Assembly (NCBI GenBank): GCA_945862295.1
Contig: CAMAXT010000005.1
Location: forward strand, 1-64,000
Source of the DNA: Pseudobacteriovorax antillogorgiicola
Lineage (GTDB): Bacteria; Bdellovibrionota_B; Oligoflexia; Oligoflexales; CAIYRB01
Direction of reading: 5' to 3'
DNA length: 64,000 nt
In this document: piece by piece, positions 43,468 through 58,992 of the stretch
How the letters are laid out: each line of letters begins with the position of its first letter
Numbering within the stretch: the stretch's first letter is position 1
Made by a program: the position numbers and the translations under genes
The notes under the pieces: model-generated
Database searches by the model: none
Seen by the model: the letters and a program-made list of their open reading frames with translations, nothing else
What the model was told of the DNA's origin: nothing

Positions 43468-43914
43468 ATGACGATTCAGTTTTATTCCGATATTGAGAAA
43501 TTCAATCAGATCTACAAATTGCCTTGCAATGATCAACCTGTTCTTTTAACTCCAGACCGCATTGAAAACTTTCGCGATATTCTTGCGGAAGAAGTCGAAG
43601 AGGCAAATGACATCTCAGACAAGTATCAAAAAATGCTGCAAGCATCTGGTGGCACACTAAATCCGCAGCAAAAACTCGAAATCCTTACCGATATGTCTGA
43701 CTGGCTTGGCGATATTGTTGTTTACTGCTCAAGCGAAGCAAAACGCTGGGGTCTGCCACTTGACCAAATCTTAAATGTCATTATGCAATCTAATTTTTCA
43801 AAACTTGACGCCAACGGCGAACCGATTTACGACGAGCGTGGTAAAGTTATGAAGGGTCCGAATTACTGGAAGCCGGAACCAAAGATTAGTCAGCTACTTT
43901 CTGAAGACAAATGA
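43468..43914 (+). CDS. MazG-like / PRA-PH superfamily nucleotide pyrophosphohydrolase
   Basis: FRDILAEEVEEANDISDK ... EILTDMSDWLGDIVVYCSSEAKRWGLPLDQILNVIMQSNFSKL. Confidence 0.72.
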   Translation: MTIQFYSDIEKFNQIYKLPCNDQPVLLTPDRIENFRDILAEEVEEANDISDKYQKMLQASGGTLNPQQKLEILTDMSDWLGDIVVYCSSEAKRWGLPLDQILNVIMQSNFSKLDANGEPIYDERGKVMKGPNYWKPEPKISQLLSEDK

Positions 43915-44699
43915 GTGTAAATTTAAAAAAACACTTGGCAGAAGTTGAAGCTGTGGTGCGAAATACTGCGCCACAGCGCAACAAATTAAACCCCGCATCT
44001 TATATTGGTGGTGGGGTTTCTTCCTATCAGTATGCTGCACCGAGCGTACCGCAGGTTAGATCGATATATAAAAATACGCCGTTCTCTTTTTGTGATAAGA
44101 CTCCTGCTGCAAAAATTCAAGAGATCAAAACCTGGGATTACATCTGGCAACAATCGCAAATTTACGAAGTCGCCAGCCTTTCGCTTATACACATGAGCGA
44201 TGGTGTAAAAAAAGGCGAACTCCTAGCTCAGCACCTCCCGATGTTAAAGAAGTGGGCTCTGCGGATAGATAACTGGGCGCACAGCGATGGGTTGTCTTCA
44301 ATCTATACCCGGATTTTAGAATCTGATCGCAAGGCAATGCTGCCAATTTTAGAAGACTGGAGTGACTCTAACAATCCATGGCTGAGGCGGCAGTCTATTG
44401 TCAGCCTGCTCTATTATTCTTCTGCACGCAAAGATGTCCTGTCATTTGTGAAGTTAATTAGCCTTGTTAAAAAGCAGCTGCATCACGAAGACTACTACGT
44501 TCAAAAGGGGGTTGGCTGGACATTGCGAGAGATTGGTAATGTCTATCCAGATGAGGTGTTTGCGTTTTTAGAAGCAAATATAGGGGCTGTTAGTGCCGGG
44601 GCTTTCTCCGCGGCTACCGAAAAACTTTCTCCAGCGCAAAAAACCCACATTAAGAAATTGCGAGCGCTAGCTAAAGGAGAAACCCTTGGACGCCGTTGA
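43911..44699 (+). CDS. DNA alkylation repair protein (AlkD-like HEAT repeats)
   Basis: YEVASLSLIHM, IDNWAHSDGLSSIYTRIL, NPWLRRQSIVSLLYY, LHHEDYYVQKGVGWTLREIGNVYPDEVFAFLE. Confidence 0.82.
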   Translation: MSVNLKKHLAEVEAVVRNTAPQRNKLNPASYIGGGVSSYQYAAPSVPQVRSIYKNTPFSFCDKTPAAKIQEIKTWDYIWQQSQIYEVASLSLIHMSDGVKKGELLAQHLPMLKKWALRIDNWAHSDGLSSIYTRILESDRKAMLPILEDWSDSNNPWLRRQSIVSLLYYSSARKDVLSFVKLISLVKKQLHHEDYYVQKGVGWTLREIGNVYPDEVFAFLEANIGAVSAGAFSAATEKLSPAQKTHIKKLRALAKGETLGRR

Positions 44700-45968: not shown

Positions 45969-48900
45969 ATGAGAAAGCAATTTGAACCTGCTATCGAAGA
46001 TCTAAAAACTGACACAACTTCTGCGTCACCTCGCCTCTTCGATGAACTCGGGCACGACGATTTTTTTGGGGACGAACAAATTGATCGCGAGATTCAACTT
46101 CAGCTTCGTTCTGCAGAGCAGCAGTCAAATGAAAAGAAAGCTATCGACCGCTTTCTCTACGAAATTCTGAAGATCGAACAAGATCTTGTTCAGCAGTTAA
46201 AAAAGAAGATCTTCGACCAAGAAAATTCGCAAGCTTCTAAGCGCCTCGAAGACCGTATGCGCGCTGAAGAGCTTGCTTCACAGAACCGTATTCGAGAGAA
46301 GCTTTCGAAAGAGAAAATGGAATCTGAAAAGCGTATACAGCGCCAGATTCAATTAGAACAACTTCGCCTCCAAAACCGCTTTATCGAGAAGAAGAACGAG
46401 GAGGAGGCAACTCTTAAAGTTCGTAAAACCGAATTGTTAAAGAATGAGCAGACTGCGATTTCTTCATTGCGCTCTGACCTACAGATTAAAATGGAAACCG
46501 AATCCGCAGCAAGATTGAAAGAAGCTCTTGCGACAGAAAAGAAACTGGCGGATGAACGTCTCGAAGATCTCAAGAACAACGAATTTGCTCTTGTGCGCAA
46601 AAAAATCGCAGAGATGCGCAAACGAGAAGAGTCAGTCGTTGCCGAGACAATTGCTAATTACGAAAACCAAGCAAAAACTCAACTCGATGGCATGCTAAAG
46701 GCAGCCTTTGAAAAAGAGGAAGAGCTTTCAAAAGCTCGCATCGACGAAGCTTCAACCAATCATAAGCAAAAATTCGCAAGTGATATCGAGCGTTCCAAGA
46801 GGGTTGTATCTGTCGAAGCGGAAAAGATTAGAGCGAAGTTGCAAGAGAGTGAAAATCAGCGTCTTGTCAGAACCATTGCTGAACTTGAAAAAAATGCAGC
46901 AGCTGAAATCGAGACTCTACGAGCTTCGATGCTGGCAGATGAAGAGAAACAATCGTTGATTCGTATCCAAACTCGTATTCATGACGAAGCGAAAAATGTT
47001 GAATTGAGGTTGAAGCTTCGTTTTGAAGAAGAGAAAAAGACAAGCGACCGTCGTCGAAGCCAGCAGATCGCAATTGAAGTGACTGAATCAGAACACCGTG
47101 CGCAAAAACAACAGATATTAGAAGAAGCCGCTGCGGCAGCGCGTCTCCAATCCGACCTCAAACTGGAAAAAAATCAGTCATCAGAACGCATTGAAGCTGC
47201 GAAAATGATGGAGCTGGATGCCGCCCGTCAGCGTATAGTTGAGCAAAAAGCGGCCGAAGCTTCAGCGAAGACGCAGCGGATCGCCAGCAATGAAATTAAA
47301 GAACACAAGCATATTGAAGAGTTTTGCGAAGCACTAGCTGAGCGCGAAAAAATCGAAATTAATTGCCGCTTAGAGGAAAATCTTCGCGCAGAGCAATTAG
47401 ACTCTCAGTCACGAATTAAGACCGCAAAAGAACAATTCGGCATCGCAGCAGCAAAAAAATTAGCTTCCGAGTTTGAAAAAGAAGCTCAGCAATCGAAAGT
47501 TCGGGTTCAACGGGCGATGGTAAGTGAAGACACTTACATTAGTGACTATGAATCGAAACTAATTGCTGATGAAGCAAAAGCACGTGACCTCCGTATTGCC
47601 GAGTCATTGGCAAAAGAGGAACAAGATTCCAAGAATAGAGCTCAGATCCGCTGGAGTGAAGAGAACAGAAAAGCAACAGCGCGAGTCGAGCAATGCCTTG
47701 TTACCGAAGCTAAAGAAAGTGATCACCGAATCAGCGCTCGCGTAATTAAAGAAGATATCGATGCCCAAGAGCGCATTGATACGAGAATAGATCGTGAGAA
47801 AAGCGATGCCAGCGCCCGCTTTTCAGTTATGATGCGTAAGGAATCGGAAGAAGCCGAAATTCGTGTCCGTCAACGCCTAGCAATGGAAGCCGCCGAAGCG
47901 GAACAACGCCGCGTTATACTATGTCAGAACGAAGAAGAACTCGCGAAAAAACGAGTGGTCTTGGCACTTGAGATTGAAGAATCCGAAGCGAAAGAGCGCT
48001 TATCTCGCATGTATTCAAAGGAGCGCATGGAAGCCGAGAAGCGTCTTGCTAGTCGCCTTGAATCTGAGGAATCCGATGCTCGGGTCCGTGTTTCAAGAAG
48101 ACTCAATGATGAGATGGCGGAAGCTGAGAAACGCTCAGAACTGCATGTAGCGAAGGAAGAGCTGGAATCACAGCAGCGAGTTCGCAACCTGATGGAAAAA
48201 GAGCAAGCGTCAGCCAATAAGTGGCGAGAACAAGCCTTGGCCAAGGAAACTGTTGAAGCTGGCATCCGTCAAGAGAAGCGTTTGAAGGAAGAAAAAGAAT
48301 CTAGCGACCGTCGTGCAGGGGCTCTTTTAGAAGAAGAAAAGACTACTGGCCGCGACCGCTTGAAGACATCTCTAGTAGAAGAAGATCAAGCATCAGCTCG
48401 TCGCGTTGCTCAGCGTATGGAAGCCGAGCAGCATGAACACGAACTTCGCATTGCTCAGTATCTTGCTGAAGAGTCAGAAGTTTCAGAACAGCGCCTCGCA
48501 GCTGTACTCGAACGAGAAGACATTGAATCTAAAAAGCGAATACGTCAATTGGTGGAACAAGAAGAACGAGAACATGTTTTACGTACTGAGCGTCAAATTG
48601 CCCGTGAAGAGCGAGAAAGCCGAGCTCGCCTCGAGTCATCGATAACCAAAGAACGCAAAGACTCTGAAACTCGCATCAAAGAGTATCTTGCGAAAGACGA
48701 TTTGGAAGCGAAACGCCGTCATACTGAAAATCTCACCAAGGAAGCGGATGAAATGAAACGCTTCAAAGCTGAAGTCGTTGTCAAAGAAGAAACAACCTAT
48801 CAAAGACGCCTAGCTTCGCGTTTGGAATTTGAACGCTCTGCCTCGCGCACTCGCGTCGAACAAGCAATTGCAAGTGAAGAGCTTGAGAGCCAAAAGCGAA

Positions 48901-49688
48901 TCGAAGCCGCTTCTTATGCGATTGATGAAGAAGGCCGCTTCTTAGAAGACGAGCTAAAAACCGCAGAAGCTCTCGATGCTGAAAAACGGCAGATGTCTAG
49001 ACTTCAAGAGGAGCAAAAGTTAATCCGTAAACTCGAAGATAAGCGGCATGATTTACGCGATCGCCGGGAGCTCGAGAAACGCCGCTTCCATGCCGAGCTA
49101 GTAGCGAGAGAGAACGAGGTGTTTATTGCAGGCTGTGCCCGTAAAGAGCAAGACATGGTCCACGAAGAGTCTAGAAGAGACCGTGAGATGATCGATCAAT
49201 TGGCAGCAGAGTGTGAAACACTCCTTGCTCGTGTGGTTGATAATTTTGGTTTGAATATGCCAGTCGCAGGCCTTTTAGTTGCAAGAGATATGCGCGTCCA
49301 AAGTCCAAGCCGTAGGCAAGTAGTCACCCAAGCCAGAAACGAAGGTCTCGATCCAACCGTCGAATTCCAGTCTGTGGAAGACGAGTGCTTTAAGATCCTC
49401 AACGCGATGCCGAAAAAAGTTATTGGCCGCGAGCTAGGTCGCAAGACTCCTCATGAAGCCATGGCTCTTTTCCGCGAGTGCAGCGAGCGCGTTCGTTCCC
49501 ATCTCTTGGATAGTCTCGGCGAACCAATGAGAAGCGTGTTTTCGCAGATGATTAGCGTTTCTTCACCGCAAGACCAAACAGATGTCTTAACAGTCATCGA
49601 CACCGCTTCGTCCGAGAAGCTTGAAGAATTCGTCAACGATTTGCGCTACCAAGCTCAGATTAGCTTTAGTAATCCCGAGAAACTGTAA
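45969..49688 (+). CDS. Giant coiled-coil protein with 63 x 15-residue repeats and unrecognised C-terminal domain
   Basis: 1239-aa ORF; residues 41-985 split exactly into 63 units of 15 residues with pattern xxxAxxR(I/L/V)xxxLxxE. Confidence 0.93.
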   Translation: MRKQFEPAIEDLKTDTTSASPRLFDELGHDDFFGDEQIDREIQLQLRSAEQQSNEKKAIDRFLYEILKIEQDLVQQLKKKIFDQENSQASKRLEDRMRAEELASQNRIREKLSKEKMESEKRIQRQIQLEQLRLQNRFIEKKNEEEATLKVRKTELLKNEQTAISSLRSDLQIKMETESAARLKEALATEKKLADERLEDLKNNEFALVRKKIAEMRKREESVVAETIANYENQAKTQLDGMLKAAFEKEEELSKARIDEASTNHKQKFASDIERSKRVVSVEAEKIRAKLQESENQRLVRTIAELEKNAAAEIETLRASMLADEEKQSLIRIQTRIHDEAKNVELRLKLRFEEEKKTSDRRRSQQIAIEVTESEHRAQKQQILEEAAAAARLQSDLKLEKNQSSERIEAAKMMELDAARQRIVEQKAAEASAKTQRIASNEIKEHKHIEEFCEALAEREKIEINCRLEENLRAEQLDSQSRIKTAKEQFGIAAAKKLASEFEKEAQQSKVRVQRAMVSEDTYISDYESKLIADEAKARDLRIAESLAKEEQDSKNRAQIRWSEENRKATARVEQCLVTEAKESDHRISARVIKEDIDAQERIDTRIDREKSDASARFSVMMRKESEEAEIRVRQRLAMEAAEAEQRRVILCQNEEELAKKRVVLALEIEESEAKERLSRMYSKERMEAEKRLASRLESEESDARVRVSRRLNDEMAEAEKRSELHVAKEELESQQRVRNLMEKEQASANKWREQALAKETVEAGIRQEKRLKEEKESSDRRAGALLEEEKTTGRDRLKTSLVEEDQASARRVAQRMEAEQHEHELRIAQYLAEESEVSEQRLAAVLEREDIESKKRIRQLVEQEEREHVLRTERQIAREERESRARLESSITKERKDSETRIKEYLAKDDLEAKRRHTENLTKEADEMKRFKAEVVVKEETTYQRRLASRLEFERSASRTRVEQAIASEELESQKRIEAASYAIDEEGRFLEDELKTAEALDAEKRQMSRLQEEQKLIRKLEDKRHDLRDRRELEKRRFHAELVARENEVFIAGCARKEQDMVHEESRRDREMIDQLAAECETLLARVVDNFGLNMPVAGLLVARDMRVQSPSRRQVVTQARNEGLDPTVEFQSVEDECFKILNAMPKKVIGRELGRKTPHEAMALFRECSERVRSHLLDSLGEPMRSVFSQMISVSSPQDQTDVLTVIDTASSEKLEEFVNDLRYQAQISFSNPEKL
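46089..48923 (+). repeat. 63 tandem 45-bp coding repeats (15-aa units, diverged)
   Basis: Hand segmentation, no indels; Arg at unit position 7 in about 48/63 and Glu at position 15 in about 55/63. Confidence 0.9.
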
Positions 49689-50701: not shown

Positions 50702-51053
50702 AAGTGCTCCGAAAAAGGTCCCAGATCAGAAGTCAGATTTCATTGTACGGAGAAGTCAGGTTCGATCTATAGGGCTTTTGATCATCCCATGAACCACCGC
50801 CCAGCTCATTTTTTAATCACAGGCATCAAAACCGCTCAAAAATTTCCCAGAATTCAACAATGAATGTCAGTATTTGAGAAAGACGGATGGGGGTAGGTTT
50901 TCGAAAATGCTGACATTTTTGTTTGCAAATGTATCTGAATGTTTTTAACTTGTCCTCCAGTCAGCTCAAAGTAAGACCAAATCTCTTTGATCCTCGTAGG
51001 TTCTCTTTTGAGAGCAATGCATAGTAAATCCTGTCGCTTAACGGATTGACCAG

Positions 51054-53180
51054 ATGGCGAAAAAGAAAGCCGCTGCTAAGCAGCGTGCAAACAATGAGGG
51101 AAGTAGTAAACCGATGAAGAAAGGTTCAGCTAAAGCTAAAACCGAATCTAAAAAGCTTCCTCAGGTAGAACTCGATTCTGCAAAAGAAGTCATCGATAAT
51201 GTTCGCAAGTCAGCCAAGATGATTACCGCGAGCAGTACTGCCGAATATTTCGCGAAAAACCTTCAGCAAGTGGGCTTCTCATCGCCAACCAAGGCGGTTT
51301 TAACCACGTTAAAAGAAGCTTTTGACAACGCTTTAGATGCATGTGAAGACGCTAGCATTCTTCCAGATATCCACGTTGTCGTTGAAAAAATCGGCGTTGG
51401 AACGTTGAAAAATACCGACCAGATTCTTATCCGCGTTGAAGATAACGGTCCTGGTATCGATCCCGACGATGTTCCAAAAGTATTCGGTGAATACCTAGCA
51501 AGTTCGAAATTCGGACGAGCACGTTGCTCGCGCGGACAGCAGGGTATTGGTATTTCTGCCGCAACTACCTGGGCAATGCAGACAACGGCGTCTGGTGCAC
51601 GTGTTGTGACTAAGAAAAAGACTGCCCGCAAAGCATTTAGCTGCATTGTCGACATGGATCTCAAGCACAACCGTGGAATCGTCAAAAACAAAGAGAACAT
51701 CGACTGGAAAAAAGAGCACGGCACGAACGTTGAATTTAAAATGGACGGCCGCGTTCAGTTAAACGGTGAAGGTGGTCTGTTGAACTACCTCCGCAGTACC
51801 ATTCTCGTTAATCCGCATATGTCTATTACCTACACCTTGCCTGAAATGCAGAAGACAAGAGTAGAACGAGTTACTTCAGAAGTTCCTTTGATTCCTGAAG
51901 CAACTGAGCCTCATCCTCATACGATGATTTTAGGTGAGTTTTTAGCCCACGCTCGTCTTTTCGGTCATATCAAAGCTTCAACTTGGTTGAAAAAAGGCTT
52001 TTCACGCGTCTCCGATAAAACGCTCCAAGAGCTAGTCAGTTTGCATAAGCTGCCGCCTGCGATTTTGAATCAAGCAGTCGATACAATGTCTGAATCCGAC
52101 ATCAAAACTCTCTACAGCGCTATTCAAAAGTCTGCTCTGCAGGCACCTTCAACGAGTTCAGTACTCGCTATTGGTGAAGACGGGCTGGCGTTGAGTATCC
52201 AGCGCCTTGGTGATATCGACTTTTTTTCTGTCGTATCTCGTAAACCGATGATCGCGGACTTTAAACCAGTTCAGGTCGAAGTCGCTATCGCTCGTCAAAG
52301 AGGAGTGACTGGCGAAGATAAAGAAGAATCTGTACAGGTTCTTCGTTTCGCCAATAGGGTGCCGTTGCAGTTTGATAAAGCTGCGTGCGCGATAGTAAAA
52401 GCAATCACGTCGATCAATTGGAAGCCTTATGGTCTTAGACAGCCTAAGAATTCCTTACCAATCGGCCCTTACATCATCGCGATAAGTGTGGTTTCGCCGT
52501 TTATAAAATTCAAGAATGCATCAAAAGAAACAGTTGATGGTTCTGACGAGCTAGTTGAAGAATTTCGCCGCACCCTGATGCAGGCCGGTCAGCGCCTTTC
52601 TCGTTACCTCAAGCGCGAGCACAAAGCCGATGAGCTAGAACAACGGCAACAACATATCGAGCAATTTTGCCCAATCTTGGTCGAAACTCTCGCGCGCATT
52701 GTAAACGCACCAGAAAACCGCAAGGTAAAAGCTGAAGAAGGCCTAGCTAAGATTCTGGCGCGAGATACCAAAGGTATTCGCCAAGATTTGAATGTCGCTG
52801 ATCAAAGGCTCGCCTCCTATCTTCAAGATAATAAGAAGCATCTTTCTGGATTCTTTGCGGATATCGAAAGCGAAGAAGCTGCTGCTCATTCAGAGCGTGA
52901 CTTGGAAGACGGCGAAGTAGACGAAGATGTTGATTCCGATTCAGAAGATTCTGAAAAGGGTTCAGAAAAGTCTGCGAAAAAATCCAAGGGCAAAGCTTCT
53001 AAAGTCAAAGCTTCTAAAGGCAAAAAAGCAAAAGAGAAGAATTTCAAAAAAGCAGAGAAACCCGCAGCTAAAAAAGAAGCTATGCAAGAACCGAAAGCTA
53101 GTACGAAGAAATCCGAAGCTCCGAAAAAAGCACCGACTAAGACACCACCAGCGAAGAAAACTAAGCCAAAGGCTAAGTAA
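51054..53180 (+). CDS. top6B: DNA topoisomerase VI subunit B
   Basis: GHKL ATPase TTLKEAFDNALDACEDA, RVEDNGPGID, FGEYLASSKFGRARCSRGQQGIGISAA; transducer RFANRVPLQFDKAACAIVKAITSINWKPYGL; Lys-rich tail. Confidence 0.95.
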   Translation: MAKKKAAAKQRANNEGSSKPMKKGSAKAKTESKKLPQVELDSAKEVIDNVRKSAKMITASSTAEYFAKNLQQVGFSSPTKAVLTTLKEAFDNALDACEDASILPDIHVVVEKIGVGTLKNTDQILIRVEDNGPGIDPDDVPKVFGEYLASSKFGRARCSRGQQGIGISAATTWAMQTTASGARVVTKKKTARKAFSCIVDMDLKHNRGIVKNKENIDWKKEHGTNVEFKMDGRVQLNGEGGLLNYLRSTILVNPHMSITYTLPEMQKTRVERVTSEVPLIPEATEPHPHTMILGEFLAHARLFGHIKASTWLKKGFSRVSDKTLQELVSLHKLPPAILNQAVDTMSESDIKTLYSAIQKSALQAPSTSSVLAIGEDGLALSIQRLGDIDFFSVVSRKPMIADFKPVQVEVAIARQRGVTGEDKEESVQVLRFANRVPLQFDKAACAIVKAITSINWKPYGLRQPKNSLPIGPYIIAISVVSPFIKFKNASKETVDGSDELVEEFRRTLMQAGQRLSRYLKREHKADELEQRQQHIEQFCPILVETLARIVNAPENRKVKAEEGLAKILARDTKGIRQDLNVADQRLASYLQDNKKHLSGFFADIESEEAAAHSERDLEDGEVDEDVDSDSEDSEKGSEKSAKKSKGKASKVKASKGKKAKEKNFKKAEKPAAKKEAMQEPKASTKKSEAPKKAPTKTPPAKKTKPKAK

Positions 53181-53190
53181 AAGGAACTAA

Positions 53191-54360
53191 ATGGCACGCG
53201 TAGAAGGTAAGCGGATAGCTAAAAAAGACACCGAGATCATCTCCCTAGGTAAGGACCTGTGCGAGAAGATGCTAGGCGAGCTAGAGCGGGCACAGCGGCC
53301 TATTCTTCGTGCGACAAAGTGTGCACTAGATAACTCTATATATAATGCAAAAATCGGCTTTTTGACCCCCGGGGACAAGAAGGTCTCTTCTGAATTGAAC
53401 GTGAGTTCAGTCAAAAAGATGACTCGTGCGATATTCATGTTAGAGATTCTACTTAGAAACGTCGAAATTTCTAACATCAACACGAAGCGTGAACTTTATT
53501 ACGTCGTTAAAGGTTATGTTAAGCACGAAGCCAAACTTCGTCCTCTCGATTTTACCGATCAGTCTGAGTCCGACTCAGTCATCGATTTTATCTGCGAGAT
53601 GATGGAAGCTTATCGCGAAGAACTAAACTGCGTAGCAGATGACCGAGGGGGTCAGACTTATTCCAAAAACTTAATCGTGACGGAGAAGGAGTTCGACGGC
53701 AACGAAGCGGTTGTTGACCTGTCTCTATTGGGTACCGCGCCTTACCAGCCACGTAACAGACCGCAGAATCTGGTTCTACAAGCTAAAAAGAAAATCGACT
53801 TCTGCATCATTATCGAGTCACAAGGTACAGCGAACACCCTTGTTGCCAATGGTTTCACTAAACGTCACAACTGTATTTTGATAGGTAGCCAAGGTGTTCC
53901 TTCGAACGCTGTACGTGCTTGGGTTAAAAGAATTCAAGATCAGTTATCTGTTCCTCTCTTTTTCTTTGGTGACCTCGACGCCTATACGATGCAAAACATT
54001 TTCCGCACGTTGAAGGCGGGATCGGCTGCATCACTTATCAGAAACTCCGAGTTCTGTGCTCCTGATGTTAAGTTCTTGGGCGTTCTTCCAGAAGACATCA
54101 AGAAATACGACCTGGTCGATTACGCCGTTAAAGAAAACGATCCTGCCGAAGCTCGGTCTCTCAAAAAAGCAAGAGACGCCCTTTCAAATGATCCATTCTT
54201 TAAAGACAAGAAGAACAAAGAGCTGACAGGTATTTTAGACTGGTTGGTTAAAAACAAGCGACGATGCGAACAGCAGTCCTTTATCTCAGTAGATCCTCGT
54301 GACCCGCAAATGATGGAAAAAATCATCATCGATAAAATTAAACGCGGTAACTACATTTAA
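53191..54360 (+). CDS. top6A: DNA topoisomerase VI subunit A (Spo11/Top6A)
   Basis: Catalytic-Tyr motif NTKRELYYVV, DFTDQSESDSVIDFICEMMEAYREELNCVAD, Toprim IIIESQGTANTLVANGF and FFFGDLDAYTMQNI. Confidence 0.96.
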   Translation: MARVEGKRIAKKDTEIISLGKDLCEKMLGELERAQRPILRATKCALDNSIYNAKIGFLTPGDKKVSSELNVSSVKKMTRAIFMLEILLRNVEISNINTKRELYYVVKGYVKHEAKLRPLDFTDQSESDSVIDFICEMMEAYREELNCVADDRGGQTYSKNLIVTEKEFDGNEAVVDLSLLGTAPYQPRNRPQNLVLQAKKKIDFCIIIESQGTANTLVANGFTKRHNCILIGSQGVPSNAVRAWVKRIQDQLSVPLFFFGDLDAYTMQNIFRTLKAGSAASLIRNSEFCAPDVKFLGVLPEDIKKYDLVDYAVKENDPAEARSLKKARDALSNDPFFKDKKNKELTGILDWLVKNKRRCEQQSFISVDPRDPQMMEKIIIDKIKRGNYI

Positions 54361-54373
54361 TAGTTTTCAAGGA

Positions 54374-54397
54374 AAAGGCTTCTATCAAGAAGCCTTT
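54374..54397 (+). terminator. Intrinsic terminator of the topoisomerase VI operon
   Basis: AAAGGCTTCT-ATCA-AGAAGCCTTT perfect 10-bp stem, then gcTTTT; the loop contains the stop codon of the convergent gene. Confidence 0.78.
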
Positions 54398-55236
54398 GCT
54401 TTTGACTTCAGAAGATGAGCAAAGGATGCACCTTCAGGTTTGCTGATCGCAACCAAATCGACTTTTCGAGTGAGACCTGGAATAGTTTGATTCGAAAAAC
54501 GGTCGATTTTACATTGTGGCGAGTAACCCTGAGCTTTCGCGGTTTCAAAAGCCCGTGATGTAACCAATGATTTAGCACCAACGATTTTGGTGTACTTTTC
54601 GAGTTTTGCAGTCGTATTGACCGCGTCACCAATGATTGTGAATTCCATACGACCACCGCCGCCAACAGCTCCAAAAACAACATCTCCGACGGAACATGCA
54701 GCTCTCAAATCAACAGTTGGAAGACCCAGCTCGCGCCTTTCTGACTGCCAAAGTTCCGTTTTAAAGAGAATTTCCTCTATCGATTTTAGCGCGTCCGCTG
54801 CGTATGTTGAACTCGAACCTACAGCTCCATAGTGTGCAAGTATGCCCGTAGCCACAAGTGTCACGTAAACCATGATTCCCCAAGAGACTGAGGCGCAAAC
54901 ACCTGAGAAAACTACCTGTCCTGGTTGGAGGTGTAGGCTTCGCATGACGATGAGTAGAAAGATGTAGCTAAACATCGGTGTAGTACCGATTGCTTCCTCA
55001 TTCGAAGAGTATTGAAAAAGTAACATCTGAATAAAGAAGAAATAGTCGACGGCAATAGATAGAGCGATGTCATACCATTCAAGTTTTTTAGTTAAAAGTC
55101 GGTTGATTGACCAGAGCCAGACCGTCATGTAGGTTGCGAAGAGTAAGGCGATCGGTAGTTGGTTGATCTTTAAGAGATTCCATCCGACATTTAGAACTAG
55201 CAGGCACCAGAGGCTGCAAACAAAAAACAGCTGCAC
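54385..55236 (-). CDS. Membrane protein with truncated class III nucleotidyl cyclase domain
   Basis: TM helices then DLRAACSVGDVVFGAVGGGGRMEFTIIGDAVNTTAKLEKYTKIVG; the first half of the cyclase domain is absent. Frame stays open upstream to about 55360, so the start is uncertain. Confidence 0.7.
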   Translation of the reverse strand: MQLFFVCSLWCLLVLNVGWNLLKINQLPIALLFATYMTVWLWSINRLLTKKLEWYDIALSIAVDYFFFIQMLLFQYSSNEEAIGTTPMFSYIFLLIVMRSLHLQPGQVVFSGVCASVSWGIMVYVTLVATGILAHYGAVGSSSTYAADALKSIEEILFKTELWQSERRELGLPTVDLRAACSVGDVVFGAVGGGGRMEFTIIGDAVNTTAKLEKYTKIVGAKSLVTSRAFETAKAQGYSPQCKIDRFSNQTIPGLTRKVDLVAISKPEGASFAHLLKSKAKAS

Positions 55237-55464: not shown

Positions 55465-58400
55465 ATGCCAGGGTACCGCAGTTTAAAAAAATTATTCGAA
55501 GAACTGGAGAAAGTTCTGCAGACTCCCCAGTCTGTTCAGGTTTCGGGTCTACCTGACTCCGTGATTCAGCTTCTGCTTTCAAACGTTGTTCAACGAAAAC
55601 TTAATAACAAACTAATCATAGTGCTGCCGTCCCCACGCGAACTTTCTAGCTGGCTTCAGTTTTTCGAAGCGAATGGCTGCAATAGTGATGCCGGACCTTT
55701 ATGTACAGTGCTGCCTTTTTTCAGCAATTTCGGTAACGACCGATTCATCGATCATGGTGCGACACAGAAATCGCGGATGTTCTCTATAAGCCAACTGCTT
55801 GATAGCGATGTTCCCCAGATTATTTTGACGACCTTGCGTGGGCTTCTTCAGAAGACTGTATCCGCTAATCTCTTTCACGGGTGTGCATTCACTCTAACCG
55901 TCGAATCTGAGTATGATCAAGAACAGCTGGTCCAAACCGTTGCCGATTTAGGATATGTGCAAGCATCTGTCGTTGACGAGGAAGGGAAGTTTTCTGTTCG
56001 TGGCGGCATTTTTGATATCTTCCCATTGAATTCTTTGGCTCCGGTTCGAATCGAATTTATAGGTGATTCAATAGGTGCAATTAGAGAGTTTGACGTTCAG
56101 TCCCAGCGTTCTAAAGCTTCGAAAAAAAGTTGCAGGATTGGATTGGCTCATGAGTGGAGTGCGCCTTCTGCGAGCAGAAAAGAAGACGCTCAGAAAGTTT
56201 ATAATCATCTGCTAGATCAAAACATCCCGCAAGCCGATCGCGACGGGATGATCAACCAGTTTTTAAATGGCTTGTTTTTTAACGGCATCGATATGTTCGC
56301 ACCTTTTCTAAGGAAAGAATCGAGCTCCGGTTTGGAGCTGGCTGCTGGGGTAGGAGCTAGGTTTTTTTATCCAAAGACGCTAAATCAATGTCTGAAGGAC
56401 TATCTAGATTTCTTCGATGAAGTCTCCAGGAGTCGCGAAAGCGATATTGCGCGCGAGCGTCCGGTAGTTGACGTTGACTTTCATTTCTCAGAGGTCTCCG
56501 CCGAAGAGTCCTCTCTTCCGCCGCATCCATATGTAGAATTCGGCAATCCGTTTGTTTCCAATGAGGCCCACCATTTCCGAATGGAATCGCGGTTAGTTGT
56601 TGAGAATACCCCTCCGCTGTCCCAATCAGCGTCTGTCATGTTTGACCGCTGGATCGATGTCATTCAGGAAAGTCTTAATGCAGAAGTTAAAGTCGGCATT
56701 CTATACGTCGGTGACGAGCAAAGGGAGCGGATTGAGAATCTTCTAAATCACCGAAACCTTTCTTTCTCCGCAAAAAAGGATTTACTGCGTACAGCCCTTC
56801 AGGACAGCAAAGATTCGGTAGGCATTTATCTGTCGCAAGGTGATCTTGCGTCTCATATTAAACTTGCAGATTCAAATTGGTTGCTGATACCTGATCACAT
56901 TCTTTTCGGATCGCGGCCTCGTAGCAAAAAATCGGGTTCGCGCAAACTACAGAATTATCTTAGTTCCTTTGCCGACTTGAAAGCCGGCGATCTCGTCGTG
57001 CATGTCATGCACGGCATCGGCAAATACAATGGTCTCTCTAATTTATCGATTGGCGGCGCAAGCTCAGATTTCCTAGTTATTGAATACGCCGGCGCCGATA
57101 AGATCTATTTACCTGTTGATCGACTAAGTCTCCTTCAACGCTACACATCTGGTGGGGAAGGCGCGGCAGCGCACACTCTTGACCGTTTAGGCACCCAAAC
57201 TTGGGAAAAACGGAAATCGAAAGCTAGGGGTGCTGCCAAAGATATGGCGGCCGAGCTACTGAGCCTGCAAGCAAAACGGGCCATTGCTGACGCACCGCAT
57301 TTCTCCGCACCTGAAGATTCTTACTTTAAATTCGAAGCCTCTTTCCCTTACGAAGAAACCGAAGACCAGCTTAAAGCGATCATGGATGTCGAAGCAGACG
57401 TTCGGTCCGCGCGCGCCATGGACCGCCTCATTTGCGGCGATGTTGGTTTTGGCAAGACCGAAGTGGCTCTGCGCGCAGCATTTCGCGCGGTTCTTGAGGG
57501 TTACCAAGTTCTCGTCCTCGTACCGACTACAGTCCTCTGCTACCAACATTATCGAACATTCGCAGATCGTCTGACAAATTTTGGAGTAACCGTTGCTTAC
57601 GTTAATCGGTTTGTCAAAGGCGTCGACGAGAAGTCTGCAATTGATGGTCTTCAACGCGGAACCGTCGACATTCTGATCGGCACTCACCGTCTTTTGAGCA
57701 AAGACATCAAACCTAAACGTCTCGGTCTTTTGATTATCGATGAAGAGCAGCGCTTTGGTGTCACTCACAAAGAAAAACTCAAACACCTTCGTGCTGGCGC
57801 CCATGTTCTAACGTTGAGCGCAACTCCGATCCCACGCACTCTCCATCTTGCGATGGTTGGTCTGCGCGACATCTCTCTCATTGCAACCCCGCCTCAGGAA
57901 CGTATTGCGATCAAGACCTACGTGTCCCGCTTTGACGACGAGTTGATCAAAGACGCAATTGAAAGTGAAATTCGGCGGGGTGGACAAGTATTCTTTGTCC
58001 ATAACCGGGTTGAAGATATCGAAGAAGTCGCGTCTTACCTTAAGCGTTTAATTCCAAAAACCGAAGTGCGTGTCGGTCACGGCCAAATGCGTGAGCATCA
58101 ACTTGAAAAAGTGATCCTTGATTTTGTTGAGCACAAATTTCCCGTTCTCCTTTGCACGACGATTATCGAGTCGGGCATTGATATGCCAAACGTCAACACC
58201 CTCATCGTCAATCGCGCCGACCGTTTCGGACTAGCACAGCTCTATCAGCTGCGCGGTCGCGTTGGACGCTCTAGTCGGCAGGCTTACGCGTATTTCATGA
58301 CACCTGCTGTTGAAACCCTAACGGAAGACGCGCAAAAACGCCTAGATATCCTCTCCGCATTTCAAGAGCTCGGCGCTGGATTTCAAATCGCAAGCTTTGA

Positions 58401-58992
58401 TCTAGAGATGCGCGGTGCAGGTAACTTGCTTGGCGGTGATCAGTCTGGCCATGCGTCAACAGTTGGACTCGAGCTGTATACTCAGATGCTTGATGAAGCG
58501 ATCGCAGAGGTTCGCGGTGAAGCCGTTCGTCAACGCCGTGATACCGAGATCAAAGTTCCCGTTAACGCGTTCATCCCAATGTCCTACATCGCAGCAGAGC
58601 GGCAGCGTCTTCATATGTATAAGTCGATTTTTGGTTGCGAATCAGACGGTGAACTCAGGCAGCTCCGTGATGATTTGCGCGATCGCTACGGTGAAGAGCC
58701 AGCTGAAGTACAGTTACTCTTCTTAGTCGCGCGGCTGAAAATGCGTCTCGCCGCAATGAACGCTGTTCGCCTGAGCGCGGGCAAAGGCGTCTACGAGATA
58801 GTATTCGGAGTCCTCGACAATTCTTTTATCGACCGACTGATGCGCGCGGTCAAAATGCATCCCGAAACTTATCAACTTGCTCCAGATAACCGTTTACTGA
58901 TCAAAGGCGAAACACCAGCCGGTGGCCAAATCAAAAGACAGGAAGAGATGCTTACAGCGCTTCTCTCAAAGATAATTCCCCTTTCAGAATAG
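55465..58992 (+). CDS. mfd: Transcription-repair coupling factor Mfd
   Basis: GDLVVHVMHGIGKYNGL RID domain, RLICGDVGFGKTEVALRAAFRAV, DEEQRFGV, TRG motif region QLYQLRGRVGRS. Confidence 0.96.
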   Translation: MPGYRSLKKLFEELEKVLQTPQSVQVSGLPDSVIQLLLSNVVQRKLNNKLIIVLPSPRELSSWLQFFEANGCNSDAGPLCTVLPFFSNFGNDRFIDHGATQKSRMFSISQLLDSDVPQIILTTLRGLLQKTVSANLFHGCAFTLTVESEYDQEQLVQTVADLGYVQASVVDEEGKFSVRGGIFDIFPLNSLAPVRIEFIGDSIGAIREFDVQSQRSKASKKSCRIGLAHEWSAPSASRKEDAQKVYNHLLDQNIPQADRDGMINQFLNGLFFNGIDMFAPFLRKESSSGLELAAGVGARFFYPKTLNQCLKDYLDFFDEVSRSRESDIARERPVVDVDFHFSEVSAEESSLPPHPYVEFGNPFVSNEAHHFRMESRLVVENTPPLSQSASVMFDRWIDVIQESLNAEVKVGILYVGDEQRERIENLLNHRNLSFSAKKDLLRTALQDSKDSVGIYLSQGDLASHIKLADSNWLLIPDHILFGSRPRSKKSGSRKLQNYLSSFADLKAGDLVVHVMHGIGKYNGLSNLSIGGASSDFLVIEYAGADKIYLPVDRLSLLQRYTSGGEGAAAHTLDRLGTQTWEKRKSKARGAAKDMAAELLSLQAKRAIADAPHFSAPEDSYFKFEASFPYEETEDQLKAIMDVEADVRSARAMDRLICGDVGFGKTEVALRAAFRAVLEGYQVLVLVPTTVLCYQHYRTFADRLTNFGVTVAYVNRFVKGVDEKSAIDGLQRGTVDILIGTHRLLSKDIKPKRLGLLIIDEEQRFGVTHKEKLKHLRAGAHVLTLSATPIPRTLHLAMVGLRDISLIATPPQERIAIKTYVSRFDDELIKDAIESEIRRGGQVFFVHNRVEDIEEVASYLKRLIPKTEVRVGHGQMREHQLEKVILDFVEHKFPVLLCTTIIESGIDMPNVNTLIVNRADRFGLAQLYQLRGRVGRSSRQAYAYFMTPAVETLTEDAQKRLDILSAFQELGAGFQIASFDLEMRGAGNLLGGDQSGHASTVGLELYTQMLDEAIAEVRGEAVRQRRDTEIKVPVNAFIPMSYIAAERQRLHMYKSIFGCESDGELRQLRDDLRDRYGEEPAEVQLLFLVARLKMRLAAMNAVRLSAGKGVYEIVFGVLDNSFIDRLMRAVKMHPETYQLAPDNRLLIKGETPAGGQIKRQEEMLTALLSKIIPLSE

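Follow-up and report, generated by a model that had tools for sequence, protein, structure and literature searches.

Why some bacteria use a topoisomerase VI of the archaeal type is an open question (PMC11302465). It is raised here by two adjacent genes at 51054-54360 of the window, by which we mean the whole stretch of DNA that was analysed, the first 64 kb of one contig in a draft assembly of 157 contigs: do they encode an intact enzyme, how did they come to lie in a bacterial genome, and what would the enzyme do beside the host's other type II topoisomerases? Our answer, to which we give a probability of about 0.85, is a type IIB enzyme that has been passed down vertically with its catalytic residues intact and that is most likely the main decatenase beside gyrase.

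Structure and catalytic residues of the two subunits

The plus-strand open reading frames top6B (51054-53180, subunit B, 708 aa) and top6A (53191-54360, the Spo11-like subunit A, 389 aa) are separated by 10 bp, and the original prediction of a complete two-subunit topoisomerase VI was exact in coordinates and spacing. Sequence families and folds agree on its identity for both subunits. Top6B matches PF09239 in Pfam (E=4e-42) and PRK04184.1 in NCBIfam (495.6 bits against a cut-off of 274), while Top6A matches PF21180 (E=2e-38) and PF04406 (E=3e-11) in Pfam and scores 372 bits with NCBIfam PRK04342.1-4, under that model's own cut-off of 424. Among PDB sequences, Top6B finds 2q2e_B (5e-83) and Top6A finds 1d3y_A (9e-36); Foldseek searches with the AlphaFold models lead to Methanosarcina mazei Top6B (1e-42) and again to 1d3y (3e-17).

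Top6B consists of a GHKL ATPase domain (residues ~61-240), an H2TH domain (~293-360) and a transducer (~365-560), with an extra helix at 554-598 and disordered Lys-rich tails at 1-60 and 618-708. The idea that the Lys-rich tail forms a special module was set aside, since in homologues the tail measures between 32 and 318 aa and is frequently not Lys-rich. The GHKL residues E88, N92 and D130 and the G-boxes of Top6B are intact, and the switch lysine K491 corresponds in sequence alignment to K427 of S. shibatae; all are invariant in every complete Top6B homologue. Top6A comprises a winged-helix domain with Tyr104 and a Toprim domain with E209, D261 and D263. Y104, the second tyrosine of RELYY (codons Y103-Y104 at 53497-53502, plus strand), aligns with the catalytic Y106 of S. 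shibatae Top6A, and the Toprim acids were assigned from the same alignment, the DxD motif D261-L-D263 being placed at 53971-53979 (plus strand) by homologue alignment and residue numbering. Each of the four residues is invariant in 110/110 related Top6A proteins, so the catalytic motifs are kept, as had been claimed.

The pair thus has the characters of a type IIB topoisomerase VI: separate A and B subunits encoded together, a winged-helix catalytic tyrosine, Toprim glutamate and DxD on A, and GHKL ATPase motifs, an H2TH domain and a transducer with its switch lysine on B. In topoisomerase VIII, A and B are fused in a single chain carried on mobile elements, an identity excluded by two open reading frames in chromosomal-type surroundings; Mini-A is a stand-alone A-like protein that lacks B, and here a B subunit adjoins. 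It is very improbable that the genes form a Spo11-like double-strand-break system, a recombination initiator rather than a topoisomerase. Top6A does have the Spo11 fold (Foldseek match to the Spo11 core complex 8urq_A, 2e-9), but the nearest structures are those of topoisomerase VI, and Top6B retains the GHKL ATPase residues, the switch lysine and the H2TH domain (helices modelled at 293-360), features that are missing or degenerated in the TopoVIB-like partners of Spo11 (PMC11302465); membership of such a complex was rejected on the modelled H2TH and the intact GHKL residues.

The topoisomerase VI of M. mazei (2q2e; 9o0g and others) shares the GHKL-H2TH-transducer and winged-helix-Toprim layout and the catalytic residues, and its host likewise has gyrase. 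Identity in structural alignments is ~32% for B and ~22% for A, and the immunoglobulin-like C-terminal domain of M. mazei Top6B is replaced in the window by the helix and the disordered Lys-rich tail.

Distribution and inheritance

Top6A is present in 30/58 genomes of the window's phylum and in 93/144 of the neighbouring phylum, that of Bdellovibrio sp. qaytius, the latter count including one split gene below the cut-off. A published study (PMC11302465) already places topoisomerase VI in Bdellovibrio and in about 17 families of bacteria, so the surprise implied by the original prediction does not hold: the bacterial enzyme is intact here, but it is known already for this group and is common there. 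The survey itself contributes how widely the enzyme is spread there and how old it is, its occurrence alongside topoisomerase IV in certain lineages, and its neighbourhood with mfd. The enzymes described by Allen and Maxwell in 2024 (Bdellovibrio and 16 other families, PMC11302465) likewise have two subunits with intact motifs in hosts with gyrase; neither there nor in the window was an immunoglobulin-like C-terminal domain recognised, and topoisomerase IV, absent from those hosts outside Pseudomonadota and Terrabacteria, was not found here either. Relative to that set, the window represents a new lineage (an Oligoflexia-like family), with Lys-rich disordered Top6B tails and, in its relatives, mfd next door.

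The Top6A tree places the protein of the window in family f1, to which the window belongs (support 100), with family f8 as neighbour (94), and the GyrA tree and the identities between GyrA proteins agree with this grouping; the placement relative to archaea is weak, the archaeal sequences being few, partial and on very long branches. Pairwise Top6A and GyrA distances across 60 genomes are correlated (Mantel r 0.67, reached in 0/2000 permutations). Since the distribution of the gene keeps to family limits and its distances go with those of GyrA, these sequence comparisons indicate that topoisomerase VI in this group is old and mostly vertical, in line with the long residence originally proposed.

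A recent acquisition from archaea, or contamination, is the least probable of the readings considered. The enzyme is typical of archaea and its PDB matches are archaeal, but the nearest homologues (65-85% identical) lie within Oligoflexia, Oligoflexales, Bdellovibrionales and similar groups, against ~25% identity for haloarchaeal copies; the GC content of the locus (0.451) does not depart from that of the window (0.457), gene order is conserved in relatives, and the gene tree follows families. The surroundings are ordinary bacterial genes, including mfd, SurA-like isomerases and ribosomal S10/L3/L4, and no transposase was seen by eye among the window's translated open reading frames. Neighbours, homologue identities and unremarkable GC together exclude archaeal contamination, as the original prediction had held; of its phrase "bacterial chromosome", the bacterial genome stands, and the chromosomal location is what we infer, since the window comes from one contig in a draft assembly.

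Phages gave no Top6A match, and plasmid matches were confined to three haloarchaeal megaplasmids (~25% identity); among viral contigs, an alignment search found one with a Top6A of the same type (67% identity). A second, divergent topoisomerase VI occurs in six genomes of the same broad host phylum (G103, G107, G114, G121, G128 and G135; loci L153-L158), also with adjacent Top6B and Top6A and with tyrosine and DxD kept. Its Top6A is 32-33% identical to the window's and in the tree falls with M. jannaschii, apart from the type found in the window; it is therefore likely a separate acquisition, and topoisomerase VI probably entered the group at least twice, in agreement with the two bacterial clusters reported in PMC11302465.

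Gyrase and topoisomerase IV

Bacterial topoisomerase IV (ParC/ParE), a type IIA enzyme with an unrelated cleavage subunit, is presumed to do the same job, decatenation. The host is a bacterium of the Bdellovibrionota/Oligoflexia group, related to predatory Bdellovibrio. When gyrA, gyrB, parC and parE were looked for in its draft genome (3.05 Mb, 77.7% complete, 0.32% contaminated), gyrase was found, as one GyrA with the GyrA-box QRRGGKG and AMRYTE beside one GyrB with EGDSA, which account for the single matches to PF00521 and PF00204. A second GyrA/ParC or GyrB/ParE, which replacement of topoisomerase IV would exclude, was found neither in this 78%-complete assembly (G000) nor in six members of the family whose genomes reach 91-96% completeness; as these near-complete genomes agree, the absence is not merely an effect of incomplete assembly. 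Of 42 named genomes bearing topoisomerase VI, 40 have a single PF00521 gene.

The same tendency runs through the neighbouring phylum, where a second type IIA enzyme occurs in 2/93 genomes with topoisomerase VI and in 35/51 without it. The two with a real second gene are G119 and G126; in G101 and G144 the apparent second gene is one gene in pieces. Fisher's test on the neighbouring-phylum set gives 9e-19 with genomes treated as independent. The GyrA tree implies at least 15 changes in topoisomerase VI and 11 in topoisomerase IV, and the anticorrelation among relatedness-corrected independent pairs gives sign-test p values of 0.25-1, the changes being too few. Despite the raw counts, exclusion of one enzyme by the other as a proven rule was therefore rejected, the pattern being clade-driven; that topoisomerase VI stands in place of topoisomerase IV is graded as likely only, because the independent pairs with support are not numerous enough to reach significance.

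Both enzymes occur together in three lineages (family f6, G023 and G119/G126), a coexistence not shown in the one-genome-per-family sample of PMC11302465, and neither occurs in f12 and f4; topoisomerase VI is thus not needed and the two are not always exclusive. Most members of f6, a family of the window's order, have both. At three f6 loci (L144, L145, L146), parE-parC lies ~7-12 kb upstream of top6BA on the same contig. In f12 (G043-G053, of the window's class) the genomes are near-complete and gyrase is apparently the sole type II topoisomerase. A short ParC-like protein (474-491 aa) that seems to lack the C-terminal DNA-wrapping domain is encoded in many neighbouring-phylum genomes without topoisomerase VI (G106, G113, G178, G185, G196, G212 and others; for example L258, L259 and L261).

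Close relatives with topoisomerase VI only, topoisomerase IV only, both or neither make the survey a testable setting, one that includes cultivable Bdellovibrio-like bacteria. Family f11, of the window's order, alone holds three of the four states: topoisomerase VI only (G019, G025, G034, G037), topoisomerase IV only (G028, G031, G040) and both (G023). The presence of topoisomerase VI in these bacteria also bears on drug action: the quinolone pocket of type IIA enzymes is, to our knowledge, missing from topoisomerase VI, and structure 2hkj shows radicicol bound to its B subunit.

Proposed mechanism

The activity, decatenation preference and cellular role of the enzyme are predicted, the mechanism by homology to well-studied topoisomerase VI (PMC8837201; structures 2q2e and 9o0g). 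In a Top6A2-Top6B2 assembly, the two Top6B subunits would bind ATP and clamp shut where two duplexes cross. The dimer of Top6A would cut one duplex by Y104 with Toprim-bound Mg2+, leaving the 2-nt 5' overhangs that characterise topoisomerase VI, and a second duplex would pass through the cut before the break is resealed. Beside gyrase, with no detectable topoisomerase IV, the enzyme would separate replicated chromosomes as the main ATP-dependent decatenase. The M. mazei enzyme is a preferential decatenase, unlinking rather than relaxing (PMC8837201), a preference that fits a cell which also has gyrase, and it complements an E. coli parE-ts mutant according to unpublished data that PMC11302465 cites.

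The mfd neighbourhood

In relatives from f1, f8 and f11, mfd starts -4 to +63 bp from the top6A stop, with one overlap of 47 bp, and this spacing suggests that top6B-top6A-mfd is operon-like in these families. In the window, mfd, encoding the transcription-repair coupling factor (55465-58992, plus strand; Pfam), is separated from top6A by a terminator and a minus-strand gene at 54385-55236, whose protein has membrane segments and the back part only of a class III nucleotide cyclase domain (a weak match to PF00211, positions 98-156 of 183, E 0.11). This remnant of a membrane-anchored cyclase, probably what decay or deletion has left of a gene inserted at this point, is missing at that site in relatives where mfd directly follows top6A; as the two genes are tightly spaced there and interrupted here, the remnant and terminator suggest that the insertion came late in the history of the window's lineage.

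The strong terminator originally described after top6A is borne out by a hairpin of 10 pairs followed by TTTT at 54374-54397 (folding z = -3.61), starting 14 bp past the top6A stop and overlapping the 3' end of the convergent gene; the region around it folds with -17.1 kcal/mol (z -3.6). Lying between convergent genes, it may serve both strands. Upstream, the intergenic region 50702-51053 separates top6B from a divergent NMO-like gene, and no sigma-70-like promoter was recognised in it.

In topoisomerase IV-lacking bacteria such as Mycobacterium, gyrase alone decatenates, and an accessory topoisomerase VI that works together with Mfd on DNA tangles linked to transcription or repair, leaving the chromosome to gyrase, deserves weighing. 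The tight top6B-top6A-mfd cluster in the window's own family, f8 and f11 speaks for it, as do related lineages living on gyrase alone (f12, G009/G017). We nevertheless consider it unlikely: in the window mfd is cut off from top6A by the terminator and the opposite-strand gene, mfd was not found adjoining top6 in f3, f5, f6 and most neighbouring-phylum loci, and adjacency is not function. The preferred role therefore remains that of main decatenase beside gyrase. A wider scenario is put forward only tentatively, in which topoisomerase VI became fixed early as the decatenase replacing topoisomerase IV across the Bdellovibrionota/Oligoflexia-like group, with a top6B-top6A-mfd operon tying topology control to transcription-coupled repair in several families, occasional topoisomerase IV reversals and a second acquisition.

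Two further genes lie on the plus strand of the same neighbourhood. The gene at 45969-49688 encodes a highly charged coiled-coil protein of 1239 aa with repeated Glu/Lys/Arg-rich segments, which matches no Pfam family, was not found near topoisomerase VI in relatives and is single-copy in the host genome. At 43911-44699, an AlkD-like DNA alkylation repair gene (PF08713) shares the neighbourhood with topoisomerase VI and mfd.
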